A stretch of 33,041 bases of DNA, taken from contig JAHFAP010000011.1 in NCBI GenBank assembly GCA_023250495.1, positions 1 to 33,041 on the forward strand. The letters run 5' to 3'. The notes below the pieces were generated by a model. It did not search any database. It was not told the DNA's origin and saw only the letters and a program-made list of their open reading frames with translations. This document shows positions 23,452 to 25,523 of this stretch, piece after piece (the first letter of the stretch is position 1; every line of letters starts with the position of its first letter). Position numbers and translations under genes: made by a program. The stretch is from Deltaproteobacteria bacterium (lineage in GTDB: Bacteria; Desulfobacterota; Binatia; UBA9968).

Positions 23452-23552
23452 GGCGAATTTGGCTGGATGGCTCTTGCAAATGTAGCCAGAATCTGCGAGC
23501 CTTTGATTTCAATTCAAAATTCATAATTCATCCTTCATAATTGTCTTTTCAC

Positions 23553-23629
23553 GGGCCCATAGCTCAGCTGGTTAGAGCCACCGGCTCATAACCGGTAGGT
23601 CCCTGGTTCGAATCCAGGTGGGCCCACCA
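23553..23629 (+). tRNA. tRNA with CAU anticodon (Met or lysidine-modified Ile2), CCA encoded
   Basis: Full cloverleaf: acceptor GGGCCCA/TGGGCCC, D-arm GCTC/GAGC, anticodon arm ACCGG-CTCATAA-CCGGT, T-arm CCTGG-TTCGAAT-CCAGG, ACCA end. Confidence 0.95.
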
Positions 23630-23651
23630 AATTTTTGCTCCGCGAAAATTT

Positions 23652-23797
23652 AGAGCATTGGAGCATGGGACAATGGAACATTAGGCCAGTGTGACAATGC
23701 GGTCTACTGATCCATTGTTCTATTGGTCTCCGTTTTGAGACCAAGGGTCCATTCGACAATGGAACATTGGAGAATGTGTCCAATGCGGTCCACTGAT
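23652..23797. repeat. Repeat D, copy 1 (146 bp; 105-bp core 23693-23797)
   Basis: Core matches 25209-25313 with one mismatch seen by eye; left arm is 8-nt words GAGCATTG|GAGCATGG|GACAATGG|AACATTAG; central hairpin TTGGTCTC-CGTTTT-GAGACCAA. Confidence 0.9.
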
Positions 23798-23865
23798 CCA
23801 CTGCTCTATTGCTCGCTCGCTTTCCCCGCTTTCATTTTCTGAGCATCAGTCAAATTTCTATTGCT

Positions 23866-24045
23866 CTACTGCTCGCGTTTATCCGTACTCTTAATCAGCG
23901 CTGTGAGCATCTTAGACAGAACTTCCAGCTCCGCCTTCAGATCCGCGCACTTCTCCTCGGTTATCAACTTTTCGCGTTTGCAAAGCTCCAGCACGGGTAC
24001 GCACTCGAAGGCAGACCCTCGGGCATTGAACTCGTTCAGATACAT
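23866..24045 (-). pseudogene. C-terminal half of a four-helix-bundle (23S rRNA IVP/S23-like) protein, 5'-truncated
   Basis: Hand translation: MYLNEFNARGSAFECVPVLELCKREKLITEEKCADLKAELEVLSKMLTALIKSTDKREQ*. Family-typical 'ARGSxFEx...L.IAK...I..E....L..E.E..SKML..LI' pattern; N-terminal half absent. Confidence 0.72.
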
Positions 24046-24095: not shown

Positions 24096-24380
24096 ATGAC
24101 TTTCTTTGGACTGAATTGGCAATTCAACTGGGTATCTCGATACGGCAATGTCGAGCTGACACCTAAGGAGCGGGATCGGCTGAGAGCCCTAGCACTGTGG
24201 CAAGAAACTAAGGATGTAAAGCTAGTCTGTCGCACCTTCCAGATGAGCCAGGCTACTCTGTATCGGTGGCGCAAGCGCTTCAATCCTCACGATCTGGGAT
24301 CACTCAAGGAGCACTGCCGTTGCCCTAAGCACGTACGCTCTGCTCGCGACGGACCGCGCTGTCGACAGAGTTGCTTTTGA
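24096..24380 (+). pseudogene. N-terminal HTH fragment of an IS481-like transposase/integrase
   Basis: 'LTPKERDRLRALALWQETKDVKLVCRTFQMSQATLYRWRKRFNPHDLGSLKEHCRCPKHVR' resembles the transposase N-terminal HTH; no DDE catalytic domain follows. Confidence 0.65.
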
Positions 24381-24482
24381 ACCGAAACCGTTTCGGTTTT
24401 TGTGGGACTCCGTGGAGTGAAAGCGGGACTTTTAGGGATGATGGTGAGAGGGGCGCTTTTCTTTCCGTGCTGGTTCGAATCC
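24381..24482. repeat. Repeat R, copy 1 (102 bp), ending in a tRNA T-arm-like GGTTCGAATCC
   Basis: Ungapped match to 25017-25118, 93/102 identical by hand. Confidence 0.9.
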
Positions 24483-24576: not shown

Positions 24577-24792
24577 ATGGCTCACAAATACCTGGTCACT
24601 CTGACTCAAGGGGAAGACGGTTACATCGTGGCAGAGTGCCCCTCCCTTCCGGGATGTGTCTCTCAGGGAAAGAGCCGCGAAGAGGCCCTTAAGAACATCC
24701 AGGAGGCCATCGAGGGGATTGTTGAAGTCCGCAAGGCCCAGGATCTTCCTATACCTTCCCCTGACATCGTAGAGATCAGCGTAGCCGCTTAA
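24577..24792 (+). CDS. hicB: HicB antitoxin (short form)
   Basis: 'YLVTLTQGEDGYIVAECPSLPGCVSQGKSREEALKNIQEAIEGIVE'; TAATG overlap with hicA. Confidence 0.92.
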   Translation: MAHKYLVTLTQGEDGYIVAECPSLPGCVSQGKSREEALKNIQEAIEGIVEVRKAQDLPIPSPDIVEISVAA

Positions 24793-25010
24793 TGGCCTCG
24801 CTCCCCGTCATCTCGGGCCGAGAGGCGGTCAAGGCATTCCAAAAGCTAGGTTTTCTTTTCCATCACCAGAGAGGAAGCCACATAATTCTCTACCACGCTA
24901 ACGGGCGGCATCTCTCCGTCCCAGATCACAAAGAACTCGACCGGGGAACTTTGAGAGCACTCATCCGCGGGGCTGGCGTCACGGTGGATGAGTTTGTAAA
25001 GCTGCTCTAG
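24792..25010 (+). CDS. hicA: HicA mRNA interferase toxin
   Basis: 'SGREAVKAFQKLGFLFHHQRGSHIILYHANGRHLSVPDHKELDRGTLRALIRGAGVTVDEF'. Confidence 0.93.
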   Translation: MASLPVISGREAVKAFQKLGFLFHHQRGSHIILYHANGRHLSVPDHKELDRGTLRALIRGAGVTVDEFVKLL

Positions 25011-25016
25011 CGAAAG

Positions 25017-25118
25017 ACCGAAACCGTTTCGGTTTTTGTGGGGCTTCGTAGGGTAAAAGCGGGACTTTTGGGGATGACGGTAAGAGAGGCGCTTTTCTTT
25101 CCGTGCTGGTTCGAATCC
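25017..25118. repeat. Repeat R, copy 2 (102 bp), followed by tRNA-like GGGTGGGCCCA
   Basis: See copy 1; T-arm and acceptor-like tail GGTTCGAATCCGGGTGGGCCCA at 25108-25129. Confidence 0.9.
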
Positions 25119-25130
25119 GGGTGGGCCCAG

Positions 25131-25166
25131 AAAATAAAAAGCCCGGGTTCCCGGGTTTTTTATTTT
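25131..25166. terminator. Strong bidirectional intrinsic terminator
   Basis: AAAATAAAAAGCCCGGG-TT-CCCGGGTTTTTTATTTT, 17-bp stem with one G-T pair. Confidence 0.85.
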
Positions 25167-25167
25167 C

Positions 25168-25313
25168 AGAGCATTGGAGCAGTGGAGAGTGGAGCAATGG
25201 GTTGGGGCGACAATGCGGTCTACTGATCCATTGTTCTATTGGTCTCCGTTTTGAGACCAAGGGTCCATTCGACATTGGAACATTGGAGAATGTGTCCAAT
25301 GCGGTCCACTGAT
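25168..25313. repeat. Repeat D, copy 2 (146 bp)
   Basis: Same length as copy 1; core 25209-25313 near-identical, left arm re-worded. Confidence 0.9.
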
Positions 25314-25523
25314 GTACTGCTCGTGTTGATCCGTACTTCATCTTCGCCCTGAACAGGCTGCGAATGTGAGGCAAAATCCCGCCTTGACAAGAGCCGCCGC
25401 ATGCTCCAGAATCTTGCCAGCGTTTGGACCGCTTTGAAGGTGAAGATCTCCGGTCGTATGGCTCCGCTTGCCCTTCGAGCGGTTTAAGATGTCAAATAAA
25501 ATCACTGACGCAAGGGGGGAGAT

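Follow-up and report, generated by a model that had tools for sequence, protein, structure and literature searches.

A truncated four-helix-bundle gene beside tRNA-Met and the inverted word repeats that flank its relatives

Background

In the window (i.e., the whole stretch of 33,041 nt analysed here), a truncated gene of the S23/IVP-type four-helix-bundle family runs with its last codons into a tract of short repeated words. This raises the question whether gene and repeat belong to one and the same unit and, if so, what kind of unit this is. A preliminary description of the locus had suggested testing whether this protein family is physically linked to a locally re-worded repeat. For comparison, 224 loci of the family were collected from the window's order, from its phylum, and from a named set across GTDB, which spans Chloroflexi, Bacteroidota, Planctomycetota, Clostridia, Proteobacteria, Patescibacteria, and others. 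In the sample of the phylum, the family is present in 113 of 198 genomes. An alignment of the proteins of the entire family proved too diverse for scanning.

The truncated gene and its surroundings

The minus strand of positions 23866-24045 carries the C-terminal half of a four-helix-bundle gene (S23/IVP, TIGR02436), as established by translation and hmmscan. The translation is exactly the 59-aa peptide given before (MYLNEFNARGSAFEC...KSTDKREQ, followed by the stop), a length that lies under the usual floor of 60 aa for open reading frames. Its assignment to the family was borne out by the profile searches: the peptide matches TIGR02436 with 35.9 bits (E 7e-9, cut-off 24, model positions 61-108 of 109) and PF05635 with 30.4 bits (E 4.9e-7), the latter slightly under the whole-protein cut-off of 33.8, as is expected because only half a protein is present. 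At the 3' end of the remnant the DNA reads ...CGCGAGCAGTAGAGCAATAGAAATTTG, such that the word tract starts inside the final codons and the stop codon sits within the repeat words, in agreement with the preliminary description.

An intact gene of the same kind (L021) is found in a genome (G030) of the same bacterial family, next to the same tRNA-Met and with the same words. Residues 8-59 of the remnant are identical to this full-length protein at 45 of 52 positions (homologous part about 23866-24024), and the first seven residues fall outside the break point. The window copy lacks the N-terminal (5') half of the gene as well as the 5' arm of words described below, and it is best explained as a decayed copy of an element with word arms. 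Adjoining the truncated gene, a 94-aa open reading frame (24096-24380) contains a helix-turn-helix-like stretch and resembles the N-terminus of a transposase; it is possibly linked to the truncation.

Word tract A (23649-23880), composed of CAATGG/CCATTG-type words, comprises the 3' arm of the element and adjoining dyads and reaches into the last codons of the remnant; its folding is better than that of shuffled sequences (z -3.8). Word tract B (25165-25340) duplicates this tract over 158 nt with 90% identity; at its end lie the last approximately eight codons of the same bundle gene, in decayed form. The tRNA-Met (CAT) is situated on the plus strand at 23553-23629, and the stretch 25106-25172 on the same strand comprises a repeat of its 3' end and, following this, a AAAATAAAAAGCCCGGG...CCCGGGTTTTTTATTTTC terminator. 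This terminator directly follows the tRNA in the L021 locus, the order of which is tRNA, AAAATAAAAA-CCCGGG terminator, tract, and gene. In the window, the terminator (25125-25172) precedes tract B after the second tRNA 3' end (25106-25135), and tract A and the remnant come straight after tRNA-Met itself. The ancestral side of the locus is recognisable by this second tRNA 3' end with the terminator.

Direct repeats of 102 nt (91% identity; 24381-24482 and 25017-25118) start with the palindrome AACCGAAACCGTTTCGGTT and bracket a hicB-hicA-like pair (24577-25010). Each copy terminates in a tRNA T-arm-like CTGGTTCGAATCC, which suggests repeated insertion at the 3' end of tRNA-Met. The tract, the tRNA end, and the hicBA-like pair with its repeats are laid out as if the end of the tRNA had undergone a duplication or received an insertion; on the best explanation, the word tract was duplicated when another insertion entered there. 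Closely preceding tRNA-Met, a further word run (AATTCAAAATTCATAATTCATCCTTCATAATT, 23511-23543) has no inverted partner visible nearby.

Inverted word arms in the protein family

The genome of the window (2.9 Mb, 331 contigs, 83% complete) possesses seven PF05635 loci. By eye, their flanks contain short repeated words that are inverted across the gene and differ at most of the loci: TTCAA/TTGAA at L001, GGGATTGGGAATT at L002, GTCAGC/GCTGA at L003, GTTCAAGG at L004 (with the same core as L001), ATCTGA at L005, TTTTGGAT at L006, and CAATGG in the window. Four of these loci were usable in a quantitative test, and two of them pass its stricter threshold. In this test, 250 nt preceding the start of the gene were aligned with the reverse complement of 350 nt past the end of the profile match, a score of at least 28 being counted as arms.

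Among the 203 full-length family genes to which the test was applied, 153 (75.4%) reach this score, as do 82% of the named set alone; approximately a quarter of the family shows no arms by this test. The score is reached by only 1.9% of arm pairs swapped between different loci, by 13% in the direct (non-inverted) orientation, and by 9 of 319 ordinary genes (2.8%), which were sampled from 20-kb stretches of the same genomes and from the window. The difference between family and ordinary genes (Fisher p 9e-75) is nominal since the loci are related, and this and the other nominal p-values are too small for the same reason. The suspected link between protein family and repeat is supported by these frequencies, and the word repeat is part of the element; neither of the two outcomes that had been named as speaking against the link, a missing family match of the peptide or a lack of enriched word dyads at family genes, occurred. 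Concerning the position of the repeat, the preliminary description had noticed it on the 3' side only; the 3' words are indeed present, but intact genes bear inverted arms on both sides.

Most of the arms (110 of the 153 loci) fit best to a period of 7 nt; a period of 8 nt fits best in 28 loci and one of 9 nt in 10. In 42 of the 153, the 3' arm starts before the stop codon, as it does in the window. Very long arms, with about 230 nt of GGACGGT words per side, are found at a bundle gene of Planctomycetota (L109). The open reading frame lies in the loop between complementary ends in the family at large and in L021; in the window copy the 5' arm is missing. A complete element is a small intergenic unit that consists of a 5' arm of tandem 7-nt words, the bundle gene in sense orientation, and a 3' arm that is the reverse complement of the first, and measures about 430-570 nt in the best-studied case.

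Correspondence of words and protein subfamilies

Across the 153 armed loci, similarity of words is correlated with protein identity (Mantel r 0.34; the highest value among 2000 permutations was 0.075). Words are shared by under 2% of pairs with less than 45% amino acid identity, by 60% of pairs between 60 and 70%, and by 78% of pairs above 70%. When loci of the window's phylum are paired with loci of the named set, words are shared in 17 of the 20 pairs that have at least 60% amino acid identity. Yet the identity at four-fold degenerate sites in these pairs is just 36%, and the outer flanks are unrelated; the synonymous sites being saturated, the shared words are therefore not leftovers of recent copies. 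Word and protein are thus kept in step by some influence, and the inference that accounts for this most simply is that the bundle protein reads its word.

Hairpins without a gene

In the Mesorhizobium genome G233, the word AGGCAGT occurs at seven places, one of which is the element with the bundle gene; the other six are without this gene and are mostly short hairpins; the reversed pattern was found nowhere in that genome. The same genome contains four family genes with four different words, and the word types of Mesorhizobium bundle proteins include AGGCAGT, AGTAGTC, and AGGGGAGT. In the genome of the window, the word GTTCAANN has 32 matches at about 16 places, only one of them at a family gene, and its reversed control has no match there. 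The window's own word is found at one further place, as a solo hairpin after another tRNA. Solo dyads numbered 9 in 543 kb of genomes with the family vs. 1 in 347 kb of genomes without it (p 0.05), which is merely suggestive. Chance as an explanation was rejected on the swapped-arm, ordinary-gene, and reversed-pattern controls.

Alleles at one insertion site in Mesorhizobium

The joined flanks of an element of G233 (L180) were used as a query against 81 genomes drawn from the genus, all of which matched. Thirty of the alleles read are empty sites of 26-32 nt that contain no words, and 20 are intact, with the gene between AGGCANT arms of 2-15 words. Four alleles possess a decayed gene (L318, L319, L331, L334), and six are word hairpins without a gene (L317, L338-L342). 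The remainder comprises four short degenerate hairpins, one 51-nt variant, and three alleles (L316, L327, L332) in which an unrelated palindromic insert, ATGCATGTCGCCCAAAAGTGCGCAGCGGTTTTGGG...GACATGCAT, occupies the same gap.

Among the decayed alleles, L331 is in the same condition as the window copy, in that nothing but the C-terminal end of the gene and the 3' arm is left. In L334, both arms have switched to the 8-nt word AGGGCAGT; since both have changed, this allele is evidence that re-wording affects the two arms together. The intact genes are without internal stops and exhibit dN/dS values of 0.075-0.081, by which strong purifying selection on the bundle gene is shown at the level of the coding sequence.

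The comparison of empty with filled alleles likewise shows, for this gap, that the arms arrive with the element; pre-existing words as a landing site are ruled out here by the wordless empty sites. No target-site duplication was recognised in the alleles of this gap and no transposition event was seen, and the series may represent one old insertion with many losses. At another position, the gap between nuoC and nuoD, bundle elements with different words are situated in Mesorhizobium (L277) and in Rhizobium/Xaviernesmea (L130/L140), which would make this gap either a recurrent site or the place of a re-worded old element.

Structure of the bundle protein

The intact protein of L021 matches PF05635 with 111 bits, and its AlphaFold model consists of four helices (pLDDT 95). 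The structures nearest to the model are 2GSC (TM 0.90) and 2RLD, followed by Avd of diversity-generating retroelements (DGRs; 4DWL, TM 0.80) and the DGR complex, in line with the likeness to Avd that had been pointed out beforehand. A solved relative of the protein is pentameric. Nine positions are invariant in 18 diverse members (L5, Q36, S43, N47, E50, G51, R54, S70, E73); no known catalytic motif was found in the protein.

Words at a second gene family

A scan of the background for word dyads revealed 9-nt words, CACGAAGGA and CGCAAAGAA, away from bundle genes. Their source is presumably to be sought in GxxExxY genes (PDDEXK_3, PF13366), a family unrelated to the four-helix bundle. At the GxxExxY loci of the order (L427-L444), inverted arms with a score of at least 28 are present in 12 of 13 cases, mostly with 9-nt words such as these two. 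The swapped-arm control is high here (22%), owing to the shared words. This parallel in a nuclease-like family favours the reading of word-arm units as mobile elements.

Interpretation and alternative explanations

The explanation that we consider fairly probable is that of a word-arm element, decayed in the window, whose protein binds and spreads its own word hairpin. The build of the element, the inverted words proper to each locus, their covariation with the protein, the empty, filled, and decayed alleles, the solo hairpins, and the purifying selection are shown by sequence; recognition of the word by the protein, active spread, and the mechanism of re-wording are inferences. The bundle protein would bind the hairpin as RNA or single-stranded DNA and would help it to copy or insert itself, the catalytic step probably being carried out by host enzymes; the solo hairpins would be non-autonomous passengers. 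New words would arise through slippage of the tandem words, with both arms changing to match. Decay of elements via internal deletion, the window copy included, is seen in the sequences themselves.

The alternative that retains most weight, although we regard it as unlikely, is a host or selfish function at the RNA level without mobility: RNase III would cut the long stem that the arms form in the operon transcript, in the manner of 23S rRNA intervening sequences, the protein would bind or regulate that RNA, and spread would occur via ordinary recombination only. The orientation of the genes would be compatible with this, given that, of 140 bundle genes with two co-directional neighbours, 131 have the sense and 9 the antisense orientation, with several elements inside operons (nuoC-nuoD, groES-groEL, and guaB-guaA; gene identities read from sequence), but a sense gene in an operon is equally true of any ordinary gene. 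Purines predominate on the coding strand of the 5' arm (124 vs. 24 loci, p 2e-17), the predicted RNA fold of the arms is a long, stable stem (z -4.5), and RNase III cleaves the intervening sequence of Coxiella in vitro (PMC4990558). However, same-word solo hairpins at many unrelated sites and clean empty sites remain unexplained by such a function.

Improbable is the assumption that a REP-associated tyrosine transposase (HUH, RAYT-like) moves the hairpins in trans while the bundle protein tunes or blocks it. Y1 transposases are available in 35 of 36 genomes of the order, but they are equally present where the family is absent, and no word arms accompany the single copy in the genome of the window (L407) within the stretch that was read; lacking association with the family, they were rejected as its specific partner.

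To regard the bundle gene as a passenger caught between host microsatellites or terminator-like hairpins seems very improbable: words do occur without a gene at many places, and tandem-word copy number varies as in microsatellites, but word and protein subfamily coincide across phyla in spite of saturated synonymous sites, arms accompany 75% of the family as against 2.8% of ordinary genes, and empty sites are wordless.

A DGR-type system, in which the protein would take the part of Avd and a reverse transcriptase would act in trans, is hardly tenable in spite of the common fold, because RVT_1 is absent from the genome of the window, not only from the window itself (where no DGR had been claimed), and a reverse transcriptase exists in only 12 of 24 genomes of the order with a bundle gene vs. 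8 of 12 without, the RT-free gene-bearing genomes including several that are more than 93% complete; dependence on reverse transcription was rejected on this uncorrelated distribution, and the link between family and repeat does not need it.

Beyond the word-arm element of the window, a wider reading is put forward only tentatively, as something that we would not yet expect to hold in full: a class of selfish hairpins throughout bacteria, with arms in a word code specific to the protein, in which a pentameric bundle reads its own 7-nt word in folded nucleic acid and spreads gene and hairpins without transposase or reverse transcriptase, with GxxExxY as a parallel 9-nt class and with rRNA intervening sequences and cyanobacterial STRR heptamer repeats as members. 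If true, STRR hairpins, the scattered rRNA intervening sequences, and the S23/IVP genes in cas operons would have a single origin, and an orphan family would become a set of predicted protein-word pairs. It would also bear on the action of Avd-like proteins in DGRs and provide annotators with a rule by which to recognise word-arm elements and their decayed remains.

Comparison with known systems

The word-arm element is best read as an intergenic, REPIN/RAYT-like relative of the 23S rRNA intervening sequence, recognition and mobility remaining inferred. No prior report linking S23/four-helix-bundle genes with heptamers, inverted repeats, or GxxExxY was found in the openly licensed literature. 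S23/IVP genes inside cas loci have been reported as a possible CRISPR association (PMC3936711); insertion into operons would explain them more simply.

With the 23S intervening sequences of Leptospira and Coxiella, the element shares the protein family and the location of the open reading frame in the loop of complementary termini. In Coxiella, terminal inverted repeats, an S23p open reading frame, and three tandem heptamers GACAGAT just before it are described, and the copy number of the heptamer differs between strains (PMC4990558). Despite this similarity, word-arm elements are situated between protein or tRNA genes (in the window beside tRNA-Met), none of the 203 loci being in a 23S context according to a motif scan. 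Furthermore, their arms consist entirely of words, each protein subfamily has words of its own, and hairpins without the gene are scattered over the genome.

As in REPIN/RAYT systems, dispersed intergenic hairpins match the flanks of a gene whose family tracks the type of hairpin. RAYT, however, is an HUH tyrosine transposase, whereas the protein of the word-arm element is an unrelated four-helix bundle (TIGR02436) without known active site, and the arms are tandem 7-nt words instead of a fixed palindrome. With the Avd proteins of DGRs the four-helix-bundle fold is common to both; unlike a DGR, the word-arm element requires no reverse transcriptase.

Hairpins of tandem 7-nt words, either between genes or within an RNA loop, are also known from cyanobacterial STRRs, whose function is given as unknown (PMC2670836), and from the P6b stem of the trnL intron, where the origin of the repeats is given as unknown (PMC4476775). 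No driver protein has been assigned to these, whereas bundle genes on cyanobacterial plasmids, in Nostocales and other cyanobacteria, bear such heptamer arms in all five cases read.
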